Virus record (IMG/VR): IMGVR_UViG_3300028772_000011 | Coordinates: 1-64,000 of that record | Direction: 5' to 3' (one strand) | Length of the DNA: 64,000 nt | From: a virus | Shown: piece by piece, positions 45,833 through 61,917 of the stretch | Layout of the letters: every line of letters starts with the position of its first letter | How positions within the stretch are numbered: the stretch's first letter is position 1 | Made by a program: the position numbers and the translations under genes | The notes under the pieces: model-generated | The model's database searches: none | Told to the model about the DNA's origin: nothing | The model's input: only the letters and a program-made list of their open reading frames with translations

Positions 45833-46837
45833 TTAAAATAAATTTATTGTATAATCTATATTATCTAAATCCTTTAATACCGAAGCTGCTTTTTCAACTT
45901 CGTTAACAAACAGATCAACATTCTTTGATAGCTCAGAAATACTATTTTCAACCTGAATAAAATGTTCATCATTCTGGTCGTATGCATATTCTGGTAGCCC
46001 CCAAATTGAATTAAGTGTTTTTCTTTTAATTAAATCAAAGCCTCTATTAGCCTCATCCGTTTCAACCATTATATTATAGAAATTAGGATAAGACAATGTT
46101 TGGGTGTTAAAAAAAGCATTATATTTATTCTGTAATTCCAAGAACTTTTTACTATACTGTTGTAAAAACAAAGTATTAATTTGAGGGACATCTTCATTGA
46201 TAACCCTTCTAACGACATTTTCAATCAATGATTTTATATTTATATTTTCCATAATGAGGTCATTTTCTATTGCTAATTCTTTAATTTCTGTTTTATCGCT
46301 AGAATCGATTGAATCAGATGATAATAATGCTGACACAACTTCTTTCGTTACCAAACCACTCCTAAGTATTTCTTTAAATTTTTCAATATTATTTTCCACT
46401 AATATTATATTGTCAGAATCTGACTTAGCTAATGTTGCATTTTTAAATTTCGGATAAAAATATGGTATGTTATTGGTTTTTTTAAAATCATATATTTGAC
46501 CGCATTTTATTTGAATAATATTTTCAATTGGAATTGATCTTGCAGCCCCTTGTATTCCATTAACATCGTATTGAGAATTATCTCTAATGAATAGTAAATC
46601 AAGATCACTCATTTTAACATCACGACTATTATTACTCTGACTTCTTTTGAGCATTGTATCAACATTCATTGTAGCATGAGTAATATTCCGCAATTCTCCT
46701 GTTGTTCTCTTCACAAACAATACAGAAAAATGTTGTTTTCCGTTAGCAATTTTATTCCATAATTCAACTGGGAATATATGCCTGGAAAATGCTTCCGTTA
46801 AAGGTAATATGTCATTATTTTTTGCTGCGAGGATCAT
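45833..46837 (-). CDS. Unknown protein of the head-gene cluster
   Basis: This 334-residue protein has a beta-rich N-terminal part (HFSVLFVKRTTGELRNITHATMN; DLDLLFIRDNSQYDVNGIQGAARSIPIENI) and a helical C-terminus. In the middle, IKSLIENVVRRVINED resembles the amphipathic helix plus [L/I]-x-E found in other virion candidates. It overlaps the preceding endonuclease gene by 4 bases (ATGA). A virion role is inferred from context; no family is recognised. Confidence 0.65.
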   Translation of the reverse strand: MILAAKNNDILPLTEAFSRHIFPVELWNKIANGKQHFSVLFVKRTTGELRNITHATMNVDTMLKRSQSNNSRDVKMSDLDLLFIRDNSQYDVNGIQGAARSIPIENIIQIKCGQIYDFKKTNNIPYFYPKFKNATLAKSDSDNIILVENNIEKFKEILRSGLVTKEVVSALLSSDSIDSSDKTEIKELAIENDLIMENINIKSLIENVVRRVINEDVPQINTLFLQQYSKKFLELQNKYNAFFNTQTLSYPNFYNIMVETDEANRGFDLIKRKTLNSIWGLPEYAYDQNDEHFIQVENSISELSKNVDLFVNEVEKAASVLKDLDNIDYTINLF

Positions 46838-47640
46838 TTAAGAATTTGTTTTAATAATAACTCTGGTATATTTTCATTAGTTGTACATATAGTATTCTTT
46901 TCATTATATATATTTTCAAACATTGGGGTTATCATCATATATTTTGTAAACTCAATTTTGTTTGTTACATATATTAAATCAACCTTATTATCTTTACATA
47001 GTTTATTCTTTTTAATATCTCTACCAACATTTTTTATAAATCCAGTTTTTCCACCAAAATGTTCCATATGTGATTCAAAATGTTGTTCTCCTTGGCACTC
47101 TATAGCTATTTTATAATCGGGTAAATAAAAATCTAAGGATTGTCGTCCAAGCCATCTAAATTTTTTCTGTTCAATATATTCAATTTTATTATCCGTTAAA
47201 ATTTTACCTATAAATACCTCTATTTTACTTTTTATTTTGCTACATTCTGGGCATCCGTGCTTCTCATTTGTATGCTTATTAGGCATTTGCCAGAATTCTC
47301 CGTGTATTGGACATATTATACATACAGGTAATTTGCTATGGGTATATTCAACTTTAGAATAATCATATTTATCTCCATGAACTAATATTGCATTTTCAAT
47401 AAATTTATCTCTGGTTAATCTAATTGTGTTACCTCTTCTTTCGTTATAACACATTTGACAATCATTTATTTCGTTTTTACAAACTAACCAATTTGGTTTT
47501 GACTCCCAAGTATAATTGTGTATTGTACATTTAGCTGTTATGTATTTTTTATTTCCATTATATTGAGAAAGTACTACCAAATGCGGCTTTATTATTTTAA
47601 GTTGTTCAACAAATTGTTCATGTGTAATTTTTGGCGGCAT
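46834..47640 (-). CDS. Zinc-ribbon / Vsr-like endonuclease, 2-repeat member (homing candidate)
   Basis: This 268-residue protein has one degenerate and one good copy of a repeat: FIENAILVHGDKYDYSKVEY, then CPIHGEFWQMP and GCPECSK, a C..H..C-x-x-C zinc-ribbon pattern. A restriction-endonuclease-like domain follows: LDFYLPDYKIAIECQGEQHF (about 167-186, D...E-x-Q pattern) with a DIKKNKLCKDNKVDLIYVT tail, similar to Vsr-type homing nucleases. It is inserted between gp21 and the head cluster. Two larger paralogues lie at 57170 and 60793. Role as a free-standing homing nuclease is inference. Confidence 0.78.
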   Translation of the reverse strand: MPPKITHEQFVEQLKIIKPHLVVLSQYNGNKKYITAKCTIHNYTWESKPNWLVCKNEINDCQMCYNERRGNTIRLTRDKFIENAILVHGDKYDYSKVEYTHSKLPVCIICPIHGEFWQMPNKHTNEKHGCPECSKIKSKIEVFIGKILTDNKIEYIEQKKFRWLGRQSLDFYLPDYKIAIECQGEQHFESHMEHFGGKTGFIKNVGRDIKKNKLCKDNKVDLIYVTNKIEFTKYMMITPMFENIYNEKNTICTTNENIPELLLKQILK

Positions 47641-47675
47641 TAATTTAAATTTAAACTTTTATTTAGTAATATCAT

Positions 47676-48398
47676 TTATAAAATACTTTTAGTTCCAAGA
47701 AAATAATTTAAACCCTCCAATATTTTTCCTTTATTATTTTGTTTTGATTCTACGTATTGTTTTAAATCATCCTGATTATCAGCCAAATATGCACCTGGGG
47801 TCGATGGCGAACAAACAAAATCCCAACAGGTTATTTCAAAATCATCCTGTACAATATATTTACCAGTGAACTTATCTTGTTCCACTGAACCAAGGCCTCT
47901 TGAAGAAATACCAAGTTTCCACCCAAGTCTTAAATAATTAGCAATTTGATCACCTTTGCAGGAAATAATTCCATAGTTAATAAATCCTGGTGATAATATT
48001 AATTCAAGCTCACCAAATAATGTTTTATTTTCCCACCATAACTTATTGATACCGAATGCTAAACGGTCAAGATCTAAATTTATAGATTCTGGATGATTTG
48101 ATTCGCCATACGACATCCTTTCATCAATCATTTTTTGATAAAGTTCAACTTGCTTCATTAATACGGATTTCGGATATATCCTTCCGTTAGCATTTTCACA
48201 ATTATACTTCTGTAGAATTGCATATACTTTCAATCTATCAACGATTTTAACTCCAGGTTCTTTACTACCAATCTTATTCAATTCAGTCCTTGCGTCCGAA
48301 TTTCTTTCATCTCCTAAGTCGATGAAACCCCCATCTCTCTCGATTAAAATCCCGTATCCTTGATTGTTTTTCTTTATTTCGAATAGTTCTGAAGCCAT
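47676..48398 (-). CDS. Prohead core protease (T4 gp21-like)
   Basis: This 240-residue serine protease matures the T4-type prohead by cutting after Glu in [L/I]-x-E motifs. Family blocks are plain: NGRIYPKSVL (71-80), RMSYGESNHPES with catalytic-type H102, LDRLAFGINKLWWE, GELELILSPG, and KLGISSRGLGS with Ser165/166, then DDFEITCWDFVCSPSTPGAYL. It begins the minus-strand head cluster. Several neighbours carry matching cleavage motifs. The start is 17 bases downstream of a TATTTATA-type box. Confidence 0.93.
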   Translation of the reverse strand: MASELFEIKKNNQGYGILIERDGGFIDLGDERNSDARTELNKIGSKEPGVKIVDRLKVYAILQKYNCENANGRIYPKSVLMKQVELYQKMIDERMSYGESNHPESINLDLDRLAFGINKLWWENKTLFGELELILSPGFINYGIISCKGDQIANYLRLGWKLGISSRGLGSVEQDKFTGKYIVQDDFEITCWDFVCSPSTPGAYLADNQDDLKQYVESKQNNKGKILEGLNYFLGTKSIL

Positions 48399-48412
48399 TT
48401 TAACTTATTTTT

Positions 48413-48424
48413 CATATAAATAGA
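48413..48424 (-). promoter_or_regulatory. Candidate late promoter of the protease-capsid cluster
   Basis: On the minus strand TCTATTTATATGAAAAATAAG leads to the start at 48398; the core is the complement of 48415-48422. Confidence 0.42.
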
Positions 48425-48473
48425 TTTAATTTGATAAATAACTGTATTTTTTAAAAATAATTTACTTAAGTAC

Positions 48474-48504
48474 TTGTTTTTTTAATATATTTTTAGTATA
48501 TTTG
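48474..48504 (+). promoter_or_regulatory. Early promoter, Bacteroidetes type
   Basis: TTG (48474-48476), exactly 20 bases, TATATTTG (48497-48504). A TTG inside the -7 box (48502) is a false start for the gene it drives. Confidence 0.8.
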
Positions 48505-48519
48505 TATAAAATATTAGGG

Positions 48520-48978
48520 ATGGTTGAGATTAAAAACACTAAAACAAAAAGAAATTCTCGCGAAATCAAATTAGACTTAGAATCAGATAATTTCAAAGGA
48601 ATTTTTGGGTCTACAAATAAATATGAACCGAATGTTATTTACATAAAATTAACTACTTGGATGAACCACACGGAACCGATATATAATTATCCGTCGAATA
48701 TGGAACAACTAAATAAAAAAATAAAAATAAAATTTGGGGAATACGTTAAAGATACAAATTCATTTGTTAGTAAGGTATTTTATAATTTAGATACAAAAAC
48801 CGTATTAGTAAAAGAAGACGATTGTTTTCATGGGTCATTTGAATTTACAATAAAACAAGTTGAACCAACCGAAGTAGATATGGAAAAAATAAAACCAGTT
48901 ATTGAAAAACTTTGTAATAAAATTATTAACTCAATGGAAATATCGTCTAATTTCAGTTTTAGATTGACAAAAAAATAG
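48520..48978 (+). CDS. Unknown early protein
   Basis: This is a 152-residue protein of mixed alpha/beta type with a basic N-terminus (MVEIKNTKTKRNSREIKLDL). I chose ATG 48520 because the upstream TTG lies inside the promoter -7 box and could not be transcribed as an initiator. It is a solitary plus-strand gene between two minus-strand clusters, with its own promoter and terminator, which is typical of an early host-takeover or regulatory gene. Function is not recognised. Confidence 0.75.
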   Translation: MVEIKNTKTKRNSREIKLDLESDNFKGIFGSTNKYEPNVIYIKLTTWMNHTEPIYNYPSNMEQLNKKIKIKFGEYVKDTNSFVSKVFYNLDTKTVLVKEDDCFHGSFEFTIKQVEPTEVDMEKIKPVIEKLCNKIINSMEISSNFSFRLTKK

Positions 48979-49003
48979 CAACCGTATTTATTTGATTGCT
49001 ATT
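48974..49003. terminator. Bidirectional intrinsic terminator
   Basis: AATAGCAA / TTGCTATT with a 14-base loop, between the convergent genes ending at 48978 and 49014. Confidence 0.65.
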
Positions 49004-49013
49004 ATTTATTTAT

Positions 49014-51284
49014 TTATACTATTTCAAGAAATGAACCATCTGGTACAACCGCGGATACACTATCAAAATCTTCCCATATATTAGTATAATAATATCCTTG
49101 TTTTGCATTACCTTGTTTTAATTTACGACCCATCATTTCATTGGCCATTTCATCGCTACAAGGATCTTCGTATGTATTTGACATATCACCGATTATAACA
49201 ACCTGAAAAATAGTTGGAACTGAATCAAATGGGATTAAATCTTTACTTGAAAAATAAACAGCTCTTTTCTTTCTTTGTTCTGGGTAATAATCATCATCTG
49301 GAACATCTTCTGTTGCATTAAAATTCATTATTGGGTCATACCCTATTATGTAATTCTTCCTTTCAAGTGTTTTTTTTCCAGCTAATAATGTTTTACCATA
49401 TTCTCTTTTTCCATCCCATTCACCGACAGCTGGAACACCAATTTTTGCTTGTAATGCTTGTGTTGCAGCCATTTTTGTACCTATATGTATTCCACTTTTT
49501 CCGTTTAAAGATCTATCAGTAGTTCCGTGGTAAAACAAAGGGTGTCCATCTTTTAGTATAAGTTGTTCACGTAAGAAGTTTTTTTTTACTATATTTGATG
49601 TTTCTTCATTAATCACTAAACCTCTATCATCCAATTCTACAATATATAATTCATTTTCTTTTGCTAATGTTAATATATGATTTAATAATTTTTGTTTTGA
49701 ATCATCAAATATACCATTCTCTGGAGATGGACCATAACACAATTTAAATTCGTGATTATTTAAAGGGGTTGATCCATTAACTTTATAAATATTTGGAAAC
49801 CATTTAATAATATCTTTTTGTTTTTCCTTATCAAAATCAACTGATTGAGTACTAAAATTGATTTTATATATATTACCACCATATATTAAACTACCATTTC
49901 TCCAGTCAACCAATTTAGAATTGATATTATTTTCTCTAATATTCCATTTTGCCTGACCATTTTTAATCATATCCTTATGATTCAAGCTTTCCTTATCACC
50001 GAATGCTGGCATATCAAACGCAATATCACCAATATTTCCCAAGGCGACTGCTTCATCGTTAATGATTCCACCAAGTTCATCGATTGAAAAATAACCATCT
50101 CTATCAACACCTAAATTGAAATCCTCAGCCTCAAAATATTCATCATCTTTATTATTATTATTATTTCCACCATTTAGCATACTATCAATAGAAGAAAAAT
50201 CATTTTCTCTTTCAATTTGACGCTCTAAGCGATCTATAAACGACTTACCTTTTCTGGTACCAGCGAAAATTTCTTTTACTCTAACATTAAATTCATTTAC
50301 TTCCAACGATATTAATTCAACGAATATTTCAGGTATCAGTTTTTTATTCTTAACACCATTAATAATTAAATCATATAATCCAACACCAAATCTTTTATCC
50401 CAGTTTTCAGCCAATAAAAAATCGGCCTTACCAATTACATATTCTGCATCTCGTATATTTTTTGGTAGTCCGTGAGAAGACATTAATTCCATCACACCTT
50501 TAATAGTTTCAAACACGAGTACTGGAAATATGATTGCCTCTGATACTATAGATGGTTCGGTAGATGACAAATTAACTGAAACATACCCACCAAGGTTATT
50601 AGTTTCTGGTTTAATTTCCTTTACAAACGTTAGGTAATCATTTAACGCAATGATATTATAATATAATTCTGGTAGTTTAGGATTAAGTTCATAAATCTTG
50701 TTTAAAATAGTTGAGTAATCAGATGACAATCTCACAGACGCCCCTTGTATCAATGAATCTATTATTCGACGTTTATATATTTCTTTTCCCAAATCATCCA
50801 TTTCAGAAACCTCACCAAAATCCGTATCATCCAAAATAAGTGGTTCCAAATTCTGTTCCTTATCAGGTGTGATTATATCCTTTAAAGAACACTCAATATC
50901 CAATTCACCAGGTTCTAAATTAAATTGTTCACAAACATATTCATAACATATTTTTTCAAGATCTTCACGTATGTTAATTTCAATTGATTTTGCTTTTGAT
51001 ATATATTCCGTTAACTTAGTAATTAAATAATTTTTATCATATTGTTCTAAGTCGTTTATTTTACCAACAGCTCTACCAACTTCATTAAACCGTTTTAAAA
51101 GTAGTTTATATTCAAACGAACTCTCATCTCCTGGTGGGAAAGTAGGGTGATCACCTAACGAAGTCTTATGCTGTTTTATCGAATTACTTATGAATTTAGG
51201 TAAAGTAAGTTTATCCAACTGTTTTTCTTCAATTAGCTTCATTCTTAGTTCTTTCAATTGTGATTCCGTTATTAAAATATTCAT
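49014..51284 (-). CDS. Large virion candidate with possible ADP-ribosyltransferase-like C-terminal domain
   Basis: This 756-residue protein starts with the targeting-like helix MNILITESQLKELRMKLIEE. A helical body follows, with an acidic Asn-rich linker near 370-385. The C-terminal part (about 580-700) has FYHGTTDRS, then GIHIGT and a Gly/Arg/Tyr segment (EWDGKREYGKTLL). A Y-H-G-T strand followed by an I-x-x-G-T strand is reminiscent of PARP/ART folds, which some phages inject (T4 Alt). I cannot see a certain E-x-E, so the enzymatic claim is tentative. It overlaps no neighbour and leads a unit with the HExxH protein. Confidence 0.7.
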   Translation of the reverse strand: MNILITESQLKELRMKLIEEKQLDKLTLPKFISNSIKQHKTSLGDHPTFPPGDESSFEYKLLLKRFNEVGRAVGKINDLEQYDKNYLITKLTEYISKAKSIEINIREDLEKICYEYVCEQFNLEPGELDIECSLKDIITPDKEQNLEPLILDDTDFGEVSEMDDLGKEIYKRRIIDSLIQGASVRLSSDYSTILNKIYELNPKLPELYYNIIALNDYLTFVKEIKPETNNLGGYVSVNLSSTEPSIVSEAIIFPVLVFETIKGVMELMSSHGLPKNIRDAEYVIGKADFLLAENWDKRFGVGLYDLIINGVKNKKLIPEIFVELISLEVNEFNVRVKEIFAGTRKGKSFIDRLERQIERENDFSSIDSMLNGGNNNNNKDDEYFEAEDFNLGVDRDGYFSIDELGGIINDEAVALGNIGDIAFDMPAFGDKESLNHKDMIKNGQAKWNIRENNINSKLVDWRNGSLIYGGNIYKINFSTQSVDFDKEKQKDIIKWFPNIYKVNGSTPLNNHEFKLCYGPSPENGIFDDSKQKLLNHILTLAKENELYIVELDDRGLVINEETSNIVKKNFLREQLILKDGHPLFYHGTTDRSLNGKSGIHIGTKMAATQALQAKIGVPAVGEWDGKREYGKTLLAGKKTLERKNYIIGYDPIMNFNATEDVPDDDYYPEQRKKRAVYFSSKDLIPFDSVPTIFQVVIIGDMSNTYEDPCSDEMANEMMGRKLKQGNAKQGYYYTNIWEDFDSVSAVVPDGSFLEIV

Positions 51285-51286
51285 AA

Positions 51287-52576
51287 TTATTTTTTTGTTA
51301 ACATTTCAATCAATTCATTTTTTGTAAATGATTTCCTATCATATTTTTTATTGTTCTTATGCGCTTTATCTTTTGATTTGAAACCAGGTCCTTTATCATC
51401 CATCTCCATCTCCCTATCAGCCTTTTTAATTGCCTTTACATAATCACCATTCTTATCGCGAACAGCTTTTGCTTCGACCATCATACCAATAATTTGATTC
51501 TTTGTCACAATTATTTTTGATTCATTTGTATTACCAATTTCAATCTTATCAGTGTCTTTATTATATAATGTTGAATCATTTTGCAATTTAGCCGTCTTTG
51601 CTTGTAATTGAGGATCATTAGCATCTAATTCATAGGTTGATTCTTCAATTGGTTGTTCTTTAATCCTGTGTTTTGGGTTTATTTGGTCCGTATATATAAA
51701 AGGTTCATTATCTTCTTTAATTAATGTATTTGCTATTTTTTGAAGCATCTCTGTTAATTCTCCTTTAGTCAATTTCATTGTGTTTTCTTTTACTTTGTTG
51801 TTATTATTTTTTTCATCCCAAAACTTATATAATGCTTTTTGTAATCTATTTTTAACGTTATCCGATAAAAGATTGTACCCACTAAATGTTTGTTTAAAAG
51901 TTTTTAATATCTGGTCAAAACTTCCACCCATATATCTTTTTGTTGCGAATTCAGAAAATCTTGCCCAATATTCGTGTGGCAAGGTTAAATATATTTGACG
52001 TGTTTTATCATCCATCACCGCACCTGGACTAAGAGGCTTATAATTTAAATTTTTATAGTAGTTTTTTGATTTTTTGTCATTTGCATAATTACCATTACTT
52101 CTAAAATCATCATAAGCGTGTTGTAGTTCATGTATCAAGATATTACGAATAGCCGACCCAAGTGAAATTCGCAATAATTGAGCTGCTTTTTCTACCGACC
52201 AGTCAGTTTTTAATTTATAAAATTCAACACCATAACCTATTTCAGCAACAAATTCATTAAAATTTTCAATTTTTAACCATATTTCCCCACCGCTTTTCTT
52301 ACCGTTTGGTATAAATACACCTGAAGAACTAAAATTATTTATGAAACGTATATTAATATCAGTTTTATCAATAAAATCTTTTAATAATGGATATATTGAT
52401 TTATCATAGATTATATCACATAAAAACCCATATTCAAAATTAAAATATTCCTCAGAATCCAAACCGTTTATTATTCTTTTAATAAAATCCGTATTCTTAT
52501 CTGCGAAAAATTGAACTATCTGAATGGATAATTTTTCTATCTCAGTTATTTCAGCGTATCCTTCTTTTAATTCCAT
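51287..52576 (-). CDS. Zinc metallopeptidase-like virion candidate (HELQH)
   Basis: This 429-residue protein has ILIHELQHAYDD with H149, E150 and H153, the HExxH of zinc peptidases, and a downstream LPHEYWARFSEF that could supply the third ligand. The C-terminal half (about 265-429) carries three targeting-like helices, MKLTKGELTEMLQ, IIVTKNQIIGMMVEA and SFTKNELIEMLTKK, plus [L/I/M]-x-E sites. A prohead-packed, possibly injected peptidase acting on host proteins or cell wall is a reasonable hypothesis. It starts 3 bases beyond the stop of the previous gene in the minus-strand order. Confidence 0.75.
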   Translation of the reverse strand: MELKEGYAEITEIEKLSIQIVQFFADKNTDFIKRIINGLDSEEYFNFEYGFLCDIIYDKSIYPLLKDFIDKTDINIRFINNFSSSGVFIPNGKKSGGEIWLKIENFNEFVAEIGYGVEFYKLKTDWSVEKAAQLLRISLGSAIRNILIHELQHAYDDFRSNGNYANDKKSKNYYKNLNYKPLSPGAVMDDKTRQIYLTLPHEYWARFSEFATKRYMGGSFDQILKTFKQTFSGYNLLSDNVKNRLQKALYKFWDEKNNNNKVKENTMKLTKGELTEMLQKIANTLIKEDNEPFIYTDQINPKHRIKEQPIEESTYELDANDPQLQAKTAKLQNDSTLYNKDTDKIEIGNTNESKIIVTKNQIIGMMVEAKAVRDKNGDYVKAIKKADREMEMDDKGPGFKSKDKAHKNNKKYDRKSFTKNELIEMLTKK

Positions 52577-53319
52577 TTTTTACCTGTTTTAATATCAGAT
52601 ATTACACTAGGTCCAACCCCATACAACACAGCGATATCTTTTTGCTTCATCGTATGTGATTTTAATAGTTCCTTTATTTCCATTACTATTTCAGGTTTTA
52701 ATTTAAAATGAAAGTTTCCAGAACTAAAATTCTTTTTTGAATTTATTTTATGAGTAACCCACTCAAGATTTTCCACTCTATTATCTGTTTTAACATTGTT
52801 AATATGATTAACTTCGCAACCTTTTTTATATTCACAAAATGCCATTGCAACTAATCTATGTACACGAAGCGTTTTTCTGACTCCCTTATCATTATTTAAT
52901 GCAATGAAACAATATTTATCACTCGATAGATTTTGTTTTAAAATAAATGAATCTACTTTCTTTATTCTACCTAAATTAGAAACAAGGTATTTTTTAAAAC
53001 CAATTATTTCTTTCCATTCCTCATCTTTTAAATCTTTAATTTCAATGTTTTTATAAATTTGCCTTGCTGAATTACGATAATCTTGTTCAATTCTCGCTTG
53101 TTTTATATCCTCATATTCAACATTAATCTCCATAATAGGAATAAATCCATCAATATTAACATTAATTACATCACCATAGTATTTAATGGTTTCAATATAT
53201 GGCTGAGTAAATTGGTAATTAATAAATATAAAATTATCTCCGTTCCATTGTGCAACTCTTGTATTTCTACATGTTCCAGTATAATAAAATCCTTTTTTTA
53301 ATTCACTTTTTAGTATCAA
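52567..53319 (-). CDS. HNH homing endonuclease fused to a small phage domain
   Basis: The N-terminal 80 residues (KKGFYYTGTCRNTRVAQWNG, then a DGFIPIMEI strand) look like a separate small phage protein. Next comes a NUMOD4-like segment (EEWKEIIGFKKYLVSNLGRIKK), an HNH core (RVHRLVAMAFCEYKKGCEVNHINNVKTDNR with the H-N-H residues), ENLEWVTHKIN, and a C-terminal helix-turn-helix (MKQKDIAVLYGVGPSVISDIKTG). I prefer the TTG at 53319: it follows a TATTTATA-type box (53331-53338). The longer frame to 53391 would run back into the upstream gene. A fusion or capture event is likely. Confidence 0.78.
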   Translation of the reverse strand: MILKSELKKGFYYTGTCRNTRVAQWNGDNFIFINYQFTQPYIETIKYYGDVINVNIDGFIPIMEINVEYEDIKQARIEQDYRNSARQIYKNIEIKDLKDEEWKEIIGFKKYLVSNLGRIKKVDSFILKQNLSSDKYCFIALNNDKGVRKTLRVHRLVAMAFCEYKKGCEVNHINNVKTDNRVENLEWVTHKINSKKNFSSGNFHFKLKPEIVMEIKELLKSHTMKQKDIAVLYGVGPSVISDIKTGKKWN

Positions 53320-53330
53320 AATATGTAGGT

Positions 53331-53338
53331 TATAAATA
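53331..53338 (-). promoter_or_regulatory. Candidate late-type box before the HNH gene
   Basis: TATTTATA on the minus strand, 12 bases upstream of the preferred TTG start at 53319. Confidence 0.3.
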
Positions 53339-53356
53339 TATTTATTTTTATTAAAT

Positions 53357-53773
53357 TTAGAATACAAAATCTTTCGAATCAGTTCCTTCAAATACCATAT
53401 TTCTTTTTGCTAAAGTGATTTCTATTTCAGAAATAACCAAACCAAATGGAAACACTATTCTACCTTCCTCTGGATAACTTTCATACCCATCAATATTTTC
53501 CCACAGCAAACTGAGTATTAAATCCTTACAATCCATAAAACTGTGGCTGCTAGAATCTTTTGCTAAATCAAACTTTATTTTTGTTTTAAGTATTTTAATA
53601 GTATCATATACACTTTTTTCTGGAACTCCTAAATTACATATACTTGCAGGTTTCGTATCAGCATCGGTAATCCAAAAATATTCTGGGTCATCCGTAAAAT
53701 AAAATTCATAGGTATAATTGTCTTCGGAATTTTTGCCTAATTTATTAACGTATACTAATTTCTGGTCACTCAT
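53357..53773 (-). CDS. Unknown protein
   Basis: This 138-residue protein of mixed alpha/beta type has a beta-hairpin region (YTYEFYFTDDPEYFWITDADTK) and a helical C-terminus. No Cys cluster or catalytic motif is seen. It stands between a small virion candidate (53780, 6-base gap) and the HNH gene. No family is recognised. Confidence 0.68.
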   Translation of the reverse strand: MSDQKLVYVNKLGKNSEDNYTYEFYFTDDPEYFWITDADTKPASICNLGVPEKSVYDTIKILKTKIKFDLAKDSSSHSFMDCKDLILSLLWENIDGYESYPEEGRIVFPFGLVISEIEITLAKRNMVFEGTDSKDFVF

Positions 53774-53779
53774 AATTTT

Positions 53780-54070: not shown

Positions 54071-54089
54071 ATGATTGACATTTTATTTT

Positions 54090-54101
54090 AATATAAATAC
54101 T
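54090..54101 (-). promoter_or_regulatory. Candidate late promoter
   Basis: The minus strand reads GTATTTATATTAAAATAAAATG toward the start at 54070; the core is the complement of 54092-54099, the same phrase as at 45128-45135. Confidence 0.42.
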
Positions 54102-54130
54102 TCAAATAGACAAAAAAGTTAGTATTCAAC

Positions 54131-54161
54131 TTGTTTATTTCATATTTTAAACGTACATTTG
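54131..54161 (+). promoter_or_regulatory. Early promoter, Bacteroidetes type, for primase
   Basis: TTG (54131-54133), exactly 20 bases, TACATTTG (54154-54161), 27 bases before the primase start. Confidence 0.8.
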
Positions 54162-54188
54162 TGGAAACTAAATAAAAATTAAAAGAAA

Positions 54189-55211
54189 TTGCAAAGATTA
54201 ATTAACATATTATCTTCATTTTTAGGTGAACCAGACGATTCATCCAACACAAGCGGAGTTAATATTGGGTTTAATTGCCCTGTATGCGGGAATACTAACC
54301 ATAAGCTGATTGTCTCACCACGAATAAATGCGTATAAATGCTGGATTTGCTCAGAAACGAACCAAACCCACGGTCCAATTTCAAAATTAATTAAGGAATA
54401 TGGGACCCCTGAAATATTACAACAATATAAAAATGTAATAAAAGAAATAAAAGCCAGTCGCGAGTATGAGTTGGATTTATTTAGTGGTAATGGGATAGCT
54501 TTTAGTGAAGATGAGGATGATAAGATCAGGTTCGTGGATCATACGTATGATTTTCAATTTGGGGGGCTTAAACAAGAGGAAAATGCGTTAAACTATCTAC
54601 TTCAACGTGGGTTTGATGAAAATCAAATTAGAAAATATGGCTTAAAATATACTACTTACGATTGTAAGGATAAAAGATGGTGGAATAGAATTATAATTCC
54701 ATCATATAACAAATATAATGAACTTGATTATTACACTGGTCGAGATTACATTGGTAATTCTAAACAAAAATATTTAAATTGTGATTATGAAAGACGTGAT
54801 ATTATTTTTAACGAAAGTTTAATAAATTTTGATGGAGACATTTGTCTTTTAGAGGGGCCGCTTGATTCTACGAGTGTACCTAACTCAATTCCATTAATGG
54901 GTAAATCTTTAAATCCAGGTTGTTATCTTTTTGATTGTTTATTAAAATTTTCAACCGCTGATATAATCGTTTTTTTGGATAATGATGCAACTGAAGACTG
55001 TAAAAGTATATGTAGAAAATTATGTGATGCTGGATTAGGTGATAGACTAAAATTCGTACCAACAGAAGAATTAAGATTAAAGTTATATCCAATATATTTG
55101 AAAAAAGGGATTGATTTAAAGAAATTAGATCCAAGCAAACTTTTTGAACTGGGAGGTTATAAATCTATATGCTGGGCGTTACGCAACATCAAGAATTTCG
55201 AGTGTATTTAA
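54189..55211 (+). CDS. DNA primase (zinc finger plus TOPRIM)
   Basis: This 340-residue protein lays RNA primers for lagging-strand synthesis. A zinc finger with C-P-V-C (30-33) and C-W-I-C (51-54) is followed by the catalytic core. The TOPRIM domain has ICLLEGPLDS (about 218-227, acidic Glu) and IIVFLDNDAT (about 256-265, the D-x-D pair). The length is close to that of T4 gp61. The start appears to be TTG at 54189: there is no in-frame ATG before the zinc finger, and the promoter is just upstream. Host-type promoter control fits an early replication gene. A helicase is not seen in this window. Confidence 0.88.
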   Translation: MQRLINILSSFLGEPDDSSNTSGVNIGFNCPVCGNTNHKLIVSPRINAYKCWICSETNQTHGPISKLIKEYGTPEILQQYKNVIKEIKASREYELDLFSGNGIAFSEDEDDKIRFVDHTYDFQFGGLKQEENALNYLLQRGFDENQIRKYGLKYTTYDCKDKRWWNRIIIPSYNKYNELDYYTGRDYIGNSKQKYLNCDYERRDIIFNESLINFDGDICLLEGPLDSTSVPNSIPLMGKSLNPGCYLFDCLLKFSTADIIVFLDNDATEDCKSICRKLCDAGLGDRLKFVPTEELRLKLYPIYLKKGIDLKKLDPSKLFELGGYKSICWALRNIKNFECI

Positions 55212-55221
55212 TTTACATTAT

Positions 55222-55317
55222 ATCGGTAATTTTATGTTATCGGTAAAATAACCGATAAAAGCTATTTATCGGTAAAAAGACTTATAAACACCATTTATAA
55301 GCTAAAACGCTTATAAA
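55222..55317 (+). repeat. Clustered short repeats after the primase gene
   Basis: Three direct copies of ATCGGTAA (55222, 55239, 55269) occur with an inverted copy (about 55249-55256), forming TTATCGGT-AAAATA-ACCGATAA. CTTATAAA (55281 and 55310) follows with its inverse TTTATAAG (55294). No ORF runs through. Iterons for an origin, operators for a phage regulator, or an RNA structure in the primase 3' end are all possible. Confidence 0.6.
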
Positions 55318-55318
55318 A

Positions 55319-55349
55319 AATGCTGAGATTAATTTCCCAGCATTTTTTT
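55319..55349. terminator. Intrinsic terminator after the repeat cluster
   Basis: AATGCTG / CAGCATT with a 12-base inner loop, A run before and T run after. It serves the primase and the convergent gene ending at 55352. Confidence 0.78.
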
Positions 55350-55351
55350 GT

Positions 55352-55606
55352 TTATCTTAAACCGTTAATCTTAAAACCTTGTAATGAACAAATAGATTTT
55401 CCAGAGTCACTTATATAAAAAATATCTTCTAAACTCCCAACTTCAATAGCAAAACCAGTAGATTTTTCTTTGATTAATTTTTTATCTTCCAGCCACTTCA
55501 TAATCCCATTACGCTTTAATTTAGCCGTGAAGCAAACTTCGAATGAGGAATATCCATCATCTATTAGTTTTTGTAAAACTGTCTTTTCAATTTTTTTCTT
55601 TTTCAT
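55352..55606 (-). CDS. Unknown small protein
   Basis: This 84-residue protein has a basic N-terminus (MKKKKIEKTVLQKLIDDG), a winged-helix-like segment (MKWLEDKKLIKEKSTGFAIEV) and a short C-terminal hairpin. It overlaps the upstream methyltransferase gene by 20 bases, so it is co-translated. It may bind nucleic acid; no family is certain. Confidence 0.6.
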   Translation of the reverse strand: MKKKKIEKTVLQKLIDDGYSSFEVCFTAKLKRNGIMKWLEDKKLIKEKSTGFAIEVGSLEDIFYISDSGKSICSLQGFKINGLR

Positions 55607-56342
55607 TTTCTAATCTTTCTTTTATTCTTATAATTGATTTATCATAATATTCAGTTTCTTTCTCCATCATTATCCAATCCCTGCCCGTATTAATCGATGC
55701 AATGGCCGTAGTTGAACTTCCAGCACAGCTATCAAGAACTAAGTCACCCTCATTAGAGAATGTCTTAATAATCTCCTCAATCAATAATATAGGTTTCTGT
55801 GTTGGGTGTAGTGCAGATTTTTGTTTATCAGTTACAAATGTCCAAACACTTTTTGGATAACGTTCGGTACTATCATAAGATGTTAATCCATATTCACCAT
55901 AATTTGTAGTTTGTTTACTATTTCTTTTATGTTTAGCGGTTGATACTTTCCTTTCGTGTCCAAATGTTTTTTGAGGATTATAAGTTGGTGGTTTTTTATA
56001 AAATACACAAATATCCTCGTGTGACCTTAATGGCATTTTTTTAGCATTTAAATGACCAGTAGCTGTTGTTTTTTGCCAAATAATATTGTATCTCCACATC
56101 TTCTCATTGGATAACATCATTTTTGCGGTAAACATTCCATTTGCGAATAAAACTATAGCCCCATCATCCTTGATAATTCGTTCGTATTGTTCCCATAAAA
56201 GTTCAAATGGAATTATAATATCCCATTTGTTTCGAGTAGATCCGTAAGGGTGGTCTGTACATATTAAATCAATGCTTTTATCATCAATAGATTTCATCAA
56301 CTCAAGGCAATCACCTTGATATATATTATTTTTTTCTAACAT
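55587..56342 (-). CDS. DNA methyltransferase, N4/N6-type (beta class order)
   Basis: This 251-residue protein has YQGDCLELM near the N-terminus, then the catalytic motif at 30-33, which reads DHPY instead of the usual DPPY. HPTQKP is at 179-184, and the SAM-binding motif DSCAGSSTT (204-212) is near the C-terminus, giving the catalytic-before-SAM order of the beta class. A DHPY core is unusual but keeps the Asp, Pro and Tyr. No restriction partner is adjacent, so it is probably an orphan protecting phage DNA from host restriction. Confidence 0.9.
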   Translation of the reverse strand: MLEKNNIYQGDCLELMKSIDDKSIDLICTDHPYGSTRNKWDIIIPFELLWEQYERIIKDDGAIVLFANGMFTAKMMLSNEKMWRYNIIWQKTTATGHLNAKKMPLRSHEDICVFYKKPPTYNPQKTFGHERKVSTAKHKRNSKQTTNYGEYGLTSYDSTERYPKSVWTFVTDKQKSALHPTQKPILLIEEIIKTFSNEGDLVLDSCAGSSTTAIASINTGRDWIMMEKETEYYDKSIIRIKERLENEKEKN

Positions 56343-56343
56343 C

Positions 56344-57186
56344 TCAAAAATTTACAAATTCTTCAACATTTTCATTTAAATCTTCCAAAGAATTGATACG
56401 GAACTTATAATACCCATAATCTGAGGATATATCGTGTTCTTCATATGTAATGTCTGTTGTATCAAATAAATCCCAAATAAGAAACCCGTGCCCACTGTTA
56501 ACCGTTTCACCAAAATTTTGTTGAATTAGCGAACCAGGTTGAACGATTTTAATTCCATTATAATCTTGTTCTTGACGTAAATGTACATCTCCACATAATA
56601 CAGCATCTGAACCATCAAACATTTCAAGACTTTTGCCGTGTTCAAACATAAATCCACTTTCATTTTTAAGTCCAATTGTCATACCATGAAATAAGGATAG
56701 AAATATTTTATCTGAGTATTCTATTTTTTTTAATTTTATATCAATTGGTGTATGATTATCAAATACAGAAAATAAAGACCACATAATATTTTCATCTTCA
56801 TAAAATCCACCTTTATAACCCAATTCCATATCTAAATATATAATATTAGGTAACTCAAGCATTTGAACAATAGGAGTTAGGCTATCTACGCGATCTTTAT
56901 TATTTTCTAAAAAATCATGATTACCACTAATGATAATTGTTTTACATATTTTATCACACTCCCTAAGAAACCAACTAAGTAGTTGATTCTGTTCATTTGA
57001 CACGGTAATCTTAGAATGGACTAAATCTCCAACGATACAAATTCGAGTAGATTCTTTTCCGTTTTCATCAACAATTTCTTTTGCTTGTTTTAAAAATTCT
57101 GTTATTACTTCCTTATATTCTTGGTGACGTTGAAAATTTCTAATATGTATATCAGCCAAATGAATTACCTTAGTTATTTTTTGCAT
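56344..57186 (-). CDS. Metallophosphoesterase, SbcD/Mre11-like (T4 gp47-like)
   Basis: This 280-residue protein has the five phosphoesterase motifs: HLADIHIRN (D12, H14), VGDLVHSK (D54), SGNHDF (88-91), an FHG strand, and CGDVHLRQ. With gp46 the T4 homologue processes DNA ends for recombination-dependent replication. No gp46 ATPase gene is next to it here, in contrast to T4. It is shorter than T4 gp47 (339). It overlaps the preceding endonuclease gene by 17 bases and precedes the methyltransferase by 1 base. Confidence 0.85.
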   Translation of the reverse strand: MQKITKVIHLADIHIRNFQRHQEYKEVITEFLKQAKEIVDENGKESTRICIVGDLVHSKITVSNEQNQLLSWFLRECDKICKTIIISGNHDFLENNKDRVDSLTPIVQMLELPNIIYLDMELGYKGGFYEDENIMWSLFSVFDNHTPIDIKLKKIEYSDKIFLSLFHGMTIGLKNESGFMFEHGKSLEMFDGSDAVLCGDVHLRQEQDYNGIKIVQPGSLIQQNFGETVNSGHGFLIWDLFDTTDITYEEHDISSDYGYYKFRINSLEDLNENVEEFVNF

Positions 57187-58888
57187 TTTCTTTTAATTTT
57201 ATTATATCGTTAATTTTATTAATTAATTCTTGTTCATCAATATATACTTTATCTATATAGTCAATTATATATTTTGGGTTTTCATATGTAAAATATAATA
57301 AATTGACATTATTCTTCTTACATAAATTATTTTTTCTAATATCTCTTTCTCTTACTTCTGAAAATCCTTTAGCTCCACCCCAACAATTATTTTCATCAAA
57401 ATGTTGCCTTCCATGATATTCAATAGCTATATCATATTCTGTTAAATACATATCAATACTTTGAGCCCTTAACCATTTATCTCTAAATTGGTATACTAAA
57501 TTATAGTTTTGAAAATTATCTCTAATAATAGATAATAATTTTTGTTCAGATATATCATTTTTTGAAGCACACTCTGGACAATTAGATCCTCTCAAATGAC
57601 TACTTGGTATTTGCCAGAATTCTCCGTGGATTTGGCATATAATACATATTTTAGTTGATGAGTTAACGTAATTTACTTTTGAATAATCATATTTTTCCCA
57701 ACGCGCATTTTTTAGCTTTTTAACGTATTCAGTAGTTTCCATTTTATTACACTCTGAACACCCACAGCCTTTAAGGTGAACTTCTGGTGTTTGTGTAAAA
57801 TCTCCGTGTTTTAAGCAAGTTATTATAACAGTGGTGTGTCTGTCAACATATTCTACTTTTGAATAGTCATATTTATTTCCATGAATCAATTTTGCTTTTG
57901 TTATAAATTTTTCATTTGTAAATCTTAAAGCATTTCCAACTATTTCACCTGCACATTTAGGGCAACCTCCACCTCGCAAATGGCTATTTGGTAGTTGCCA
58001 AAATTCACCATGAACTGGGCAAATAATATATACTTTTAAATTCCAATTAATATATTCTGTTTTTGAGTATATATATTTTTCACCATGAATTAATCTTGAT
58101 TGTTCTATAAACTCATCACTTGTCTTACTATTTTTACATTTTATACACCCCAAGCCATCTAAATGTTTCTTAGGCTTCTGTTTAAAATCACCATGTATAG
58201 GACAATTGATTATTACTGGCGTTTTGTTGTCAACATATATTACTTTAGAATAATCATATTTATTTCCATATATTATTTTGGATTTTAAAATGAATGATTC
58301 TGTTGTTAAAACCCCATTTGCGCATTTAGGGCAGCCATGTCCAAATGAATGATTTGCAGGTAATTGCCAAAATTCCCCATGTTCAGGACATATTATACAA
58401 ATTTCAGTAGTTGAATTAATATATGTAACTTTTGAATAGTCATATTTATTATTATGTATTTTAATTGATTTTTCTATAAATTCATTAAAATTTAAAGCTA
58501 AAGAATTTGTTTTAGTACAATTAGGACATCCGAAACCCTTTAAATGGTCTTCTGGTTTTTGCAAAAACTCACCGTGTTCTGAACATATTATAATTACAGG
58601 GGTATTTTTATCTACATATTTAACCTTTGAATAATCATATTTATTTTTATGTATCTCATTAGCTTTATCCGAAAACATTTCAGTAGTTGGTACATTGTGG
58701 CCGCATTTAGTACAATTATTACCGTTTAAATGATTGTTTGGTAATTGGTAAAATTCACCGTGTATTTTACATATAATACAAACATGTTTTTTACTATTAA
58801 CATAAACTACTTTTGAATAATCATATCTATCTCCATGAATCAGTATAGCTTTTTCGATAAATTCCTCTCTTGTTAATTTTTTAGGCAT
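57170..58888 (-). CDS. Zinc-ribbon-repeat endonuclease, 7-repeat member (homing candidate)
   Basis: This 572-residue protein has seven tandem copies of a repeat of about 60-65 residues. The consensus is HGxKYDYSKVxY, then C-x-x-HGEFxQ-x-P-x-x-H and G-x-C-x-x-C, a zinc-ribbon pattern. A C-terminal Vsr-like nuclease domain follows (SIDMYLTEYDIAIEYHGRQHF, about 475-495; then RERDIRKNNLCKKNNVNLLYF). The repeat number probably sets a long DNA-recognition surface, as tandem zinc modules do elsewhere. Its ATG overlaps the stop of a small ribbon-helix-helix gene, suggesting co-regulation. The paralogues at 46834 and 60793 have 2 and 4 repeats. Confidence 0.82.
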   Translation of the reverse strand: MPKKLTREEFIEKAILIHGDRYDYSKVVYVNSKKHVCIICKIHGEFYQLPNNHLNGNNCTKCGHNVPTTEMFSDKANEIHKNKYDYSKVKYVDKNTPVIIICSEHGEFLQKPEDHLKGFGCPNCTKTNSLALNFNEFIEKSIKIHNNKYDYSKVTYINSTTEICIICPEHGEFWQLPANHSFGHGCPKCANGVLTTESFILKSKIIYGNKYDYSKVIYVDNKTPVIINCPIHGDFKQKPKKHLDGLGCIKCKNSKTSDEFIEQSRLIHGEKYIYSKTEYINWNLKVYIICPVHGEFWQLPNSHLRGGGCPKCAGEIVGNALRFTNEKFITKAKLIHGNKYDYSKVEYVDRHTTVIITCLKHGDFTQTPEVHLKGCGCSECNKMETTEYVKKLKNARWEKYDYSKVNYVNSSTKICIICQIHGEFWQIPSSHLRGSNCPECASKNDISEQKLLSIIRDNFQNYNLVYQFRDKWLRAQSIDMYLTEYDIAIEYHGRQHFDENNCWGGAKGFSEVRERDIRKNNLCKKNNVNLLYFTYENPKYIIDYIDKVYIDEQELINKINDIIKLKENAKNN

Positions 58889-59030
58889 TTTTAATATATT
58901 CCTTTAATAATTTATTTATCAAGGAAGAAGTATTAATACATTGACCCTTTAAATAATCAACCACTTCTGGTGATACAGAAATAGATATTTTTACTTTTCT
59001 TTCTTCGTCTCCGATCTTTGTTCTTCCCAT
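58881..59030 (-). CDS. Small ribbon-helix-helix DNA-binding protein
   Basis: This 49-residue protein, ATG at 59030 and TAA at 58881, reads MGRTKIGDEERKVKISISVS then PEVVDYLKGQ and SSLINKLLKEYI. The beta strand (KVKISISV) followed by two helices is the ribbon-helix-helix (CopG/Arc-like) layout. It overlaps the large endonuclease gene by 8 bases (ATGCCTAA), so the two are translationally coupled. It may repress its own unit. It was not long enough for a 60-codon filter. Confidence 0.75.
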   Translation of the reverse strand: MGRTKIGDEERKVKISISVSPEVVDYLKGQCINTSSLINKLLKEYIKNA

Positions 59031-59087
59031 CCTATATAAATATTAAAAAAATTATTATTTTACTATAATTCATACTTTTATTTTTAA

Positions 59088-59276
59088 TTATTTTTGTTTT
59101 GCAATGTCCACATTACAATTATCGTTATTTTCTTTTAATTTTTTATTCATATTCATATAATTTCGAACAATGGTTTCAAATGCAATTATCTGCTTCCAAT
59201 CAGAAACAGGAAGTGATCTAAACATTTCACCCCTACGTTTAAGTGAAGCTTCAACTTCTTTTGAAAATGTTATCAT
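59088..59276 (-). CDS. Unknown small helical protein
   Basis: This 62-residue protein is charged and helical (MITFSKEVEASLKRRGEMFRSLP). It lies in a closely spaced run of small minus-strand genes. No family is recognised. Confidence 0.6.
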   Translation of the reverse strand: MITFSKEVEASLKRRGEMFRSLPVSDWKQIIAFETIVRNYMNMNKKLKENNDNCNVDIAKQK

Positions 59277-59282
59277 ATTTAT

Positions 59283-59642
59283 TTATTCAGTCTTAATATT
59301 AATAGGTTTAGCACTATATTTCATTAATTCTTCATTATCCTTTTGATATTTCTCAACCATATCAATCAACTGTTCAATAATTTCATATCTATTAGCCCCA
59401 GCCATTAACGATTGAAATATGTTATTAAACAAAGGTGAACGTAACATCTTTTTCTCAGCATCTTTTGAAAAATAGCTTAGTAATTCATCTGGCGAAATCA
59501 TTCTCGATTCCCTTTCAAATACTTCTTTTGAATATTTACTCAAACAACTAACATAACCTATTGGTTGATCCGATGAATGTAAAATACTATTAGTATTTTC
59601 CGCCATTATATGTGTGTAATTTTCTTCTGTTATTTTATTCAT
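59283..59642 (-). CDS. Unknown small protein
   Basis: This 119-residue protein is mostly helical, with SPDELLSYFSKDAEKKMLRS and a Met-rich middle (IFQSLMAGANRYEIIEQLIDMVEKYQK). It overlaps the upstream gene by 4 bases and lies 6 bases from the downstream one. Probably an early regulatory or host-interaction protein; no family is recognised. Confidence 0.62.
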   Translation of the reverse strand: MNKITEENYTHIMAENTNSILHSSDQPIGYVSCLSKYSKEVFERESRMISPDELLSYFSKDAEKKMLRSPLFNNIFQSLMAGANRYEIIEQLIDMVEKYQKDNEELMKYSAKPINIKTE

Positions 59643-59833
59643 TTTTTAGTTATTGTTATTTCAAATTTACTATCATACCACACACCATTTTTTGTAGTTA
59701 CAAATTTACCTTTATAATCATATTCTGATTCTTTTCCAAGAACGAATAAAATAGTGTCATTAGATATTTCACCAGCAAAGGTTATTATTTGTTCACCAGA
59801 TTTCATAGCCTTAATTTGTTCTTCTGTTACCAT
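59639..59833 (-). CDS. Unknown small protein
   Basis: This 64-residue protein of mixed alpha/beta type (EEQIKAMKSGEQIITFAGEIS, then DYKGKFVTTKNGVWYDS) is in a tight run with its neighbours, directly abutting the gene at 59834. A small beta-barrel is plausible. No family is recognised. Confidence 0.6.
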   Translation of the reverse strand: MVTEEQIKAMKSGEQIITFAGEISNDTILFVLGKESEYDYKGKFVTTKNGVWYDSKFEITITKK

Positions 59834-60139
59834 TTAGTTTATAAATTTTAATTTATCTCTTAATTTAGCTGCCAATTCATAATTTTCAGATTCTAATGCT
59901 TGTTTTAACCTATATTCAAGTGTGTGTTTGGTATTATAATCAGTCAATACCTTATTGGTAAGTATTTTTATTTCGTCTTTATTTGATTTTATTTTTGATA
60001 TTATAATCTGAATATCAATAGGGTTATCAATTAGTTCATCAATTAAATCGTCTCTAAATGCATACAATGACCCTATCATATTACGATCTGTTTCACATAA
60101 TAATTTTATTCTATTCAAATCTGGTATTTCATTTTCCAT
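59834..60139 (-). CDS. Small protein with C-terminal UVR motif
   Basis: This 101-residue helical protein ends in EYRLKQALESENYELAAKLRDKLK, a clear UVR motif (the UvrB/UvrC/ClpC/McsA interaction helix). The paralogue at 60331 ends the same way. In UvrB and UvrC this motif mediates UvrB-UvrC contact, so a protein that mimics or blocks host repair is a reasonable idea. The N-terminal part has helical hairpins without other motifs. Confidence 0.68.
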   Translation of the reverse strand: MENEIPDLNRIKLLCETDRNMIGSLYAFRDDLIDELIDNPIDIQIIISKIKSNKDEIKILTNKVLTDYNTKHTLEYRLKQALESENYELAAKLRDKLKFIN

Positions 60140-60151
60140 AATTTACAATTT

Positions 60152-60334
60152 TTAATTTATATTTGCAATCAACCGACCCATTAGTATATTAATCATTTCA
60201 TGAACTTCATCTCTAATTTTTAAAGTTTGTTCTTCTTCTGAAATTGGCTCCTTAGAAATATCACGACATTTATCAAAATGGTTTTTCATAATTTCATCAT
60301 CTTGATAATTACAAGTTAATTTTTCTTTTTTCAT
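60152..60334 (-). CDS. Unknown small protein
   Basis: This 60-residue, charged, mostly helical protein (EEEQTLKIRDEVHEMINILMG) overlaps the upstream UVR-motif gene by 4 bases and ends 12 bases before the other one. It is flanked by the two UVR-motif genes. No family is recognised. Confidence 0.58.
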   Translation of the reverse strand: MKKEKLTCNYQDDEIMKNHFDKCRDISKEPISEEEQTLKIRDEVHEMINILMGRLIANIN

Positions 60335-60735
60335 AAGTTTAATTTATCTCTTAAATTAGCAGCTAATTCATAATTTTCAGACTCTAATGCTTCACTAAGT
60401 TGTTCCTCAATAGATTTTTTTGTGAGATTTTCTTTGTCCTCAATATCTTTTGATGCATCAAGTAATAAACTTTTTAAATAATCTGGATCTTCTAATGATT
60501 TGTTAATATCTGATTTCATTTTTTCCCATTTTTCGTTGACTCTCGATACACTTTCTGGGTTAGACTTTTTTAAAACAGATATTCTATTTTCATTCAATTT
60601 TATTTTTTCGAGCAAACGGATGTTTAAAGTTTCCAATACATCTATTTCATTGTTAACAATAGAATCACAAGCCTCAATAATTAACTTATCGTTATCTTTT
60701 ATTAATTTAATTATTTCATTCATTTCCGTTTCCAT
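60331..60735 (-). CDS. Small protein with C-terminal UVR motif
   Basis: This 134-residue helical protein ends in EEQLSEALESENYELAANLRDKLNL, the same UVR pattern as the 59834 product. I chose the ATG at 60735, not the TTG at 60762, because the latter lies inside the promoter -7 box. It is the first gene of a minus-strand early run of small proteins. A second in-frame ATG is 12 bases further on. Confidence 0.68.
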   Translation of the reverse strand: METEMNEIIKLIKDNDKLIIEACDSIVNNEIDVLETLNIRLLEKIKLNENRISVLKKSNPESVSRVNEKWEKMKSDINKSLEDPDYLKSLLLDASKDIEDKENLTKKSIEEQLSEALESENYELAANLRDKLNL

Positions 60736-60759
60736 ATAAATTTTAATTTTTATTTTAAA

Positions 60760-60790
60760 CAAATGTACGTATAATTTTTATATAAAACAA
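60760..60790 (-). promoter_or_regulatory. Early promoter, Bacteroidetes type
   Basis: On the minus strand TTG (complement of 60788-60790), exactly 20 bases, then TACATTTG (complement of 60760-60767), 25 bases before the ATG at 60735. Confidence 0.8.
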
Positions 60791-60792
60791 GT

Positions 60793-61917
60793 TTAATTTT
60801 GAGAAATATTTAATTCTTTATTTAATATTTCTTCTATATTATAAAATTCCGTATATGGGATTCTAATTAATTTAATACCATTATCAAGACAATATTGTGT
60901 TTTAATTTCATCTCTTTTTTTATTAAGTATAAAAGATATTTCTCCTCCCCAATGATTAACTGGTTGAAAATGCTGTTTACCATCGAATTCTATACATATA
61001 TTAAGCGATGGTATGTAAAAATCAAAAGGTAATGGTTTTATATTCTTGCATTCATTAAATCTATGTTGGTTGATATTAATAATATTTTTCTTATTTAATA
61101 TTTTCATAATTAAGCTTTCGCCTTTACTTTCTATACAAATAGGACACCCTTTACCTTGTAAATGATTGGTAGGGCTACACGAAAATTGACCATGTTTTTT
61201 ACAAATAATATTAACCTTTTTATGTGCAGTTTCATATTTCACTAACGAATAATCAAATTTATCACCATGAATAAGTTTTGCGCTTAAAATAAACTCATTA
61301 GTTGTTGGTTTAATTTTATTACTACATTTAGCACATCCATCGCCTCGTAAATGATGCTCAACAGTTTGCTTGATAATATTACCACAATCCTTACAATAAA
61401 AAATAATATAATCGGTTAATTTAATAAAAACAACATCTGAATAATCAAATTTATTTTTATGTTTAATATTTGCCTTTTTTATAAATTCTTCTTTTGATAG
61501 ATAATAATTTCCTAAACATTTTTTACAACCATTACCTTTAGATATTAATAATGATCCAGCTTGAACATAAAAATTATTTCCACATTTTTTACATATTACG
61601 TTAACTTTTCCTTTATCGTTAATATAATTAATATTTGATAGGTCATAACTATCTCCGTGCTTTTTATATAACTCTAATAAATATTGCTCTTGCGTTTTTG
61701 TTCTTTTTAACGTACCCTTTTTTATACTGCATTTTGGGCATCCACTGCCTAATAAATGTGATCCAGCTTCTTGTTCAAAAAATTCTTTATGAATATTACA
61801 AAATATTTTTAATTTAGAGTGTCTTCCACTATATATTGTTTCAGAATAATTATATCTATCTCCGTGAATTAATCTTGCTTTAATTATAAATTCTTCTGTT
61901 GTAAGTTTTTTACTCAT
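60793..61917 (-). CDS. Zinc-ribbon-repeat endonuclease, 4-repeat member (homing candidate)
   Basis: This 374-residue protein has four zinc-ribbon repeats of the same family as the 572-residue protein (LIHGDRYNYSETIYS, KKHGDSYDLSNINY, IKHKNKFDYSDVVF, LIHGDKFDYSLVKY; each with C-x-x-C ends). A C-terminal nuclease domain (FDFYIPSLNICIEFDGKQHF, about 310-330) ends with IKLIRIPYTEF. The repeats here are less regular. It lies next to an early promoter region. With the other two it forms a family; a homing function is inferred. Confidence 0.8.
   Translation of the reverse strand: MSKKLTTEEFIIKARLIHGDRYNYSETIYSGRHSKLKIFCNIHKEFFEQEAGSHLLGSGCPKCSIKKGTLKRTKTQEQYLLELYKKHGDSYDLSNINYINDKGKVNVICKKCGNNFYVQAGSLLISKGNGCKKCLGNYYLSKEEFIKKANIKHKNKFDYSDVVFIKLTDYIIFYCKDCGNIIKQTVEHHLRGDGCAKCSNKIKPTTNEFILSAKLIHGDKFDYSLVKYETAHKKVNIICKKHGQFSCSPTNHLQGKGCPICIESKGESLIMKILNKKNIININQHRFNECKNIKPLPFDFYIPSLNICIEFDGKQHFQPVNHWGGEISFILNKKRDEIKTQYCLDNGIKLIRIPYTEFYNIEEILNKELNISQN

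Follow-up and report, generated by a model that had tools for sequence, protein, structure and literature searches.

What are three genes of one phage that join the same nuclease core to arrays of two, seven and four zinc-binding modules, and what keeps them in the genome? The genes lie on the minus strand of positions 1–64,000 of the IMG/VR virus record IMGVR_UViG_3300028772_000011, the stretch analysed here as a whole and referred to as the window; the source genome record (G000) is a 93-kb fragment. The original prediction had grouped the three proteins as nucleases with repeated zinc ribbons, either homing endonucleases or weapons against co-infecting phages. With a probability of about 0.75, the three genes are considered to be free-standing homing-type endonucleases of the EDxHD/Vsr superfamily, predicted to cleave DNA and to home, a subset being associated with a dedicated regulator of the ribbon-helix-helix (RHH) type as a putative repressor.

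The common architecture was confirmed by calls of open reading frames (ORFs) and by Pfam and PHROG searches for all three genes, designated nucleases 1, 2 and 3 in order of position (Table 1). Each protein of 268, 572 and 374 aa, respectively, begins with tandem Cys/His units of approximately 60 aa with the pattern F-I-x-K-A ... H-G-D-K-Y-D-Y-S-K-V-x-Y ... C-x2-H-G-x-F ... C-x2-C, and the predicted repeat numbers were upheld by the module count (2, 7 and 4 units), one of the two in nuclease 1 being degenerate. The Pfam family DUF4379 ("probable treble clef zinc finger") exceeded its cut-off in nucleases 2 and 3 and DUF723 in nucleases 1 and 2, while all three matched PHROG endonuclease families, with the lowest E-value of 1e-126. 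Since relatives of nuclease 1 are in addition encoded in 903 phage records, a chance origin of this architecture is excluded. All three proposed members are thus real, but the set is larger, because two further copies with three units each exist outside the window, a fourth at G000:77385-78293 and a fifth at L016:2430-3305 in the near-identical record G001, 4.1 kb to the left of the window. In the fifth copy the family C-terminal pattern ends after "ALIETKN", and its C-terminus is probably frameshifted. The phage probably carries at least five selfish DNA-cutting enzymes, with 2 to 7 modules each.

The structure of nuclease 1 was modelled with AlphaFold from a 76-sequence alignment (mean pLDDT 88.9), and the top PDB matches of the model by Foldseek were Vsr (1cw0, E 5e-4; 1vsr) and the catalytic domain of I-Bth0305I (3r3p); the model of nuclease 2 also matched Vsr. 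The C-terminal core pattern D-x-Y ... E-x-x-G-x-Q-H-F is invariant or nearly invariant in the 76 relatives. Within the alignment no variation occurs at D170, E181, G184, K211 and most of the zinc ligands, and conservation exceeds 90% at E141, Q186, H187 and D208, a pattern that is E-D-x-H-D-like. The expected Vsr-like core was thus borne out for nucleases 1 and 2, in which the C-terminal domain is predicted to adopt the Vsr/EDxHD fold. In each modelled module a helix is followed by a beta hairpin that bears CxxH and then by a short helix, with CxxC next to where a helix starts. As modelled, the units are treble-clef-like in agreement with the Pfam name of DUF4379, and the label "zinc ribbon" was therefore wrong in detail.

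Tandem modules, C-terminal fold and catalytic residues were all found as in the array-bearing EDxHD/Vsr-like homing nucleases, and the window genes are members of this known but scarcely studied kind. In the closest described case (PMC12350094, Nucleic Acids Research 2025), 3-5 CapR/DUF4379/DUF723-like domains precede an EDxHD/Vsr-like nuclease in group II introns, and this architecture is termed a homing endonuclease and a large unrecognised outgroup of EDxHD/Vsr. The window proteins share with it the domains of about 60 aa and the C-terminal EDxHD/Vsr-like nuclease, but differ in being free-standing, in having 2 to 7 modules, and in being coupled in some cases to an RHH gene. Likewise, I-Bth0305I and Vsr share the predicted nuclease fold and the E-D-x-H-D-like set, but the identity is 16-21% and the DNA-binding part is different, Vsr being a mismatch-repair nickase. 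Repeated zinc-finger DNA-binding modules are also a feature of the T5orf172 homing nucleases with CapR/DUF723 repeats of ICP1 and others, for which loss of repeats by internal recombination was described in ICP1 gp174 (PMC10448857, 2023); in that group, however, the nuclease domain is T5orf172, and no RHH partner is mentioned in the main text of PMC10448857. Unlike intron-borne homing endonucleases, the window genes are intergenic, and with no Rfam match in window positions 40000-64000 there was no sign of a group I or II intron around them, so that an intron-borne origin was rejected. Identification as a defence system was also rejected, the PADLOC matches being weak (E 2e-5 to 0.06).

If these genes are mobile, the sites should be empty in relatives, and the two sites with known relatives, gp21 and SbcD, are empty in most of them. 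In the nearest gp21 relative (L002, 66% identity), the GH19 endolysin gene starts 5 nt after gp21, with nuclease 1 and the adjoining 334-aa gene jointly absent, and most other gp21 relatives also carry no nuclease on the 3' side of gp21. The proposed interruption of the gp21-gp22 order is to be corrected: what lies between gp21 and the following gene is nuclease 1 together with the 334-aa gene, and in this nearest relative gp21 is separated from gp22 by the GH19 endolysin. At the SbcD site, a family nuclease was found within 4 kb on the 5' side of SbcD in 0 of 80 loci of related phages, and on the 3' side in 1 of the 80.

The gp21 site also provides a natural allele. Between the window and the 99.99% identical phage G001, five of 48,239 bases are different, and one of these changes introduces a stop codon into the nuclease-domain sequence of nuclease 1 (window position 47088). 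Barring an error of the consensus at this base, nuclease 1 is then dispensable, but G-to-T/C-to-A changes make up three of the five, and the stop codon is to be taken with caution. Elsewhere on the 3' side of gp21, a 5-unit family nuclease is present in L108, and nucleases of 5 and 3 units in L054 and L094, both found through the nuclease search. The linker ERRGNTIR is common to nuclease 1 and the L108 gene and, outside this phage, was absent from all the other members sampled; the two are at most candidate orthologues, as the tree does not join them.

For the family as a whole, a total of 170 distinct ORFs with both parts were collected from IMG/VR loci, with 1 to 8 units (3 and 4 the commonest, 7 in the tail) and with the nuclease domain C-terminal in 99 of the 99 ORFs checked for order. 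A tree of 97 nuclease domains was labelled by insertion site (5' of TerL, 3' of gp21, 5' of phoH, 5' of glycosyltransferase, DNA polymerase split near residue 620, and others), and the labels were tested against 1,000 shuffles. The observed labels required 13 changes, while the shuffled ones required at least 16 (mean 20-21). Nuclease lineages keep to their insertion sites, as homing nucleases would. Because of the fold, the patchy presence with empty sites, the site-tracking lineages and the natural nonsense allele, the homing-type reading is supported.

The same genes might instead be kept mainly as weapons against co-infecting phages or satellites, self-copying being secondary. Placed at conserved genes in several copies per genome, the nucleases would cut many relatives, and interference with a co-infecting phage is known for an endonuclease encoded in a phage intron (PMC11620839), but the patchy and decaying copies fit selfish turnover and the lineages remain at one site. 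Such a primary role is considered rather unlikely, although the two roles are compatible, since a homing nuclease of the free-standing type can fill either.

The second question is how such nucleases are restrained in their carrier. The ribbon-helix-helix gene noted in the original prediction is real and overlaps the start of nuclease 2 (Table 1), and the fifth copy in G001 likewise has an overlapping RHH gene, encoding a different RHH protein. Among loci centred on homing endonuclease genes (HEGs) of the family, 17 distinct same-strand RHH ORFs reach up to or into the nuclease start (gap -32 to +4). A further 11 are divergent at 94-311 b upstream of the nuclease, while five are located elsewhere and one just downstream. 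The 5' position thus holds 28 RHH genes against a background expectation of about 0.3, the control being three RHH ORFs in 668 kb of SbcD-centred loci. The first RHH profile was partly trained on nuclease-adjacent genes; a second profile, for which only RHH proteins outside the 5' position served as the training set, gave 16 new matches in the HEG-centred loci, 14 of them again at the 5' position. By PHROG several of the RHH proteins are Arc-like repressors, and by Pfam one divergent member passes RHH_3 and RHH_1, most abutting ones being below the cut-offs. In two loci, MerR-type HTH genes take the place of the RHH gene (L072:3595-3765 and L080:3453-3581), 7 and 14 b upstream of the nucleases. 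No abutting RHH gene was present beside 28 family nucleases on bacterial and archaeal contigs, and no clear inverted or direct repeats were found as operators between divergent RHH genes. A promoter-like stretch, TTTTGAC...TATATA, was seen by eye between divergent RHH genes in L214, L218, L236, L255, L272, L283 and L074.

The RHH protein most likely represses the nuclease within the overlapping operon, in the case of nuclease 2 and of a sizeable minority of its relatives. It can be suggested, more tentatively, that these operons form a class of homing cassette with its own RHH repressor switch, probably translationally coupled, and often facing a divergent second RHH gene. The RHH-coupled cassettes, together with the changes of unit number at fixed sites given below, are additions for which no earlier description was found; no RHH/CopG-homing endonuclease pair appeared in the literature searched, an absence that is weak evidence for subscription papers, most of which the search did not cover.

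The small RHH gene upstream of an overlapping second gene is also the arrangement of type II toxin-antitoxin operons, and the RHH proteins give weak Pfam matches to the BrnA antitoxin, CcdA and RelB, raising the alternative that the pair acts like a toxin-antitoxin module, with the nuclease held back through direct binding by the RHH protein. This alternative is improbable: RHH proteins of 49-60 aa, near the length of the RHH core, leave little space for a toxin-binding tail, most family nucleases are partnerless, and the divergent second RHH gene suggests control of transcription. Domestication as non-mobile phage enzymes, with a role in repair, gene regulation or the breakdown of host DNA, is very improbable. 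The Vsr fold, that of a mismatch-repair enzyme, would speak for it, as would CapR, a relative of these DNA-binding modules that has been domesticated (PMC10448857), but the genes are missing from the same place in relatives, the family is found at many different sites, and broken copies are tolerated.

Several points weigh against the identification as homing-type endonucleases with an RHH-regulated subset. The tracking of sites by lineages may come partly from shared phage descent. For the site of nuclease 3 no relative was found, so that it has no known empty counterpart, and the first module of nuclease 1 is degenerate. As to the regulator, the majority of the family is without an RHH gene, and co-inheritance of RHH protein and nuclease was weak, their similarities being weakly correlated in a Mantel test (r 0.18, p 0.08).

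Table 1. Positions of the nuclease genes, their domains and the neighbouring features in the window
Feature	Position	Strand	Remarks
Nuclease 1, 2 modules (first degenerate) and Vsr-like nuclease, 268 aa	46834..47640	-	directly 3' of gp21
Nuclease 2, 7 treble-clef-like modules (modelled) and Vsr-like nuclease, 572 aa	57170..58888	-	3' end overlaps SbcD-like start
Nuclease 3, 4 modules and Vsr-like nuclease, 374 aa	60793..61917	-	Pfam, PHROG, module count
Array of nuclease 2, seven modules, aa 4-440	57569..58879	-	module count
Vsr/EDxHD-like domain of nuclease 1, aa 137-236 (D170, E181, Q186, H187, D208, K211)	46933..47232	-	
Vsr/EDxHD-like domain of nuclease 2, aa 444-545	57254..57559	-	
Vsr/EDxHD-like domain of nuclease 3, aa 266-365	60823..61122	-	sequence only
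RHH gene of 49 aa with a match to Arc-like repressors	58881..59030	-	overlaps nuclease 2 start by 8 nt
SbcD-like (T4 gp47-like) gene	56344..57186	-	3' of nuclease 2
gp21 prohead protease	47676..48398	-	nuclease 1 on its 3' side
334-aa gene, weak match to phrog_2267 (unknown function)	45833..46837	-	overlaps nuclease 1 end
GH19-type endolysin	45177..45815	-	
Direct repeat (10 bp), first copy	47667..47676	-	at insert end
Direct repeat (10 bp), second copy	45801..45810	-	endolysin gene start

The difference in repeat number had been taken as a sign that recognition length is modular. This view is weakened by pairs of nucleases at one site. L071 with three units and L047 with two are tree sisters (support 100/100), both located just 5' of phoH, and their DNA is about 80% identical with the flank included, the difference being a clean deletion of one unit. 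The nucleases of L054 (5 units) and L094 (3 units, the first weak), both 3' of gp21, also pair in the tree (support 97/61). These two pairs indicate that arrays gain or lose whole units at a constant position, and since such same-site orthologues differ in count, the target is not simply determined by how many modules there are; additional units may contribute affinity or tolerance. An apparent difference of three versus four modules at the glycosyltransferase site vanished once degenerate modules were counted. In nuclease 2 the odd units are of one type and the even units of another (permutation p 0.007), a pattern that suggests duplication of units in pairs within this gene; alternation as a rule of the family was rejected, similarity at lag 2 exceeding that at lag 1 in just 19 of 36 long arrays. 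The variable positions of the unit cluster between CxxH and CxxC (43, 45, 47, 48, 51 and 53), and from this pattern they are candidates for DNA contact.

Under the homing-type reading, the row of treble-clef-like zinc modules would grip its target within or next to a conserved phage gene, the C-terminal Vsr-like domain would cut alleles free of the element, and repair by copying would spread the element to relatives during co-infection. The RHH protein would repress its own operon and keep the nuclease low in the carrier phage, and entry of the element into a cell or genome where the repressor is missing would set the nuclease free; with divergent RHH pairs this control might be sharpened into a switch.

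A number of features around these sites are added here. At the gp21 site, a 10-bp direct repeat, AATGATATTA, brackets the 1.8-kb insert of nuclease 1 and the 334-aa gene, but with a rough chance estimate of p about 0.01 it is only suggestive evidence. The 334-aa gene, for which no relative was found except in the near-identical phage, is a possible passenger. In L054:3764-6792, gp21 lies between two family nucleases of 3 and 5 units. The gp21 gene itself is broken near residue 100 by an in-frame insert of about 370 aa in L109:3594-5405 and L116:3591-5417, with similar splits in L111, L113-L115 and L117-L119; the insert begins with Cys and ends with Asn followed by Ser or Cys, and it is probably an intein. 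Next to SbcD, the gp46/SbcC-like gene of L010:8354-12204 is seemingly split by an intein-like sequence with a nuclease ORF. Family nucleases from two separate lineages divide the DNA polymerase gene near residue 620 in L044, L067 and L085; the nuclease of L067 has 4 units and that of L085 has 6, while the L044 copy is broken, and no Rfam intron was found at these splits. Within the window, a separate HNH endonuclease gene (phrog_59; 52567-53391, minus strand) is probably another homing-type nuclease. No RHH gene lies beside nuclease 3.

Homing nucleases shape the sites of gene exchange among phages and can decide contests between co-infecting phages. The same-site pairs that differ by whole modules constitute a natural experiment on how a modular zinc array reads DNA. 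Little is known of how free-standing homing nucleases are restrained, and a dedicated RHH switch, if true, would be a directly testable answer.

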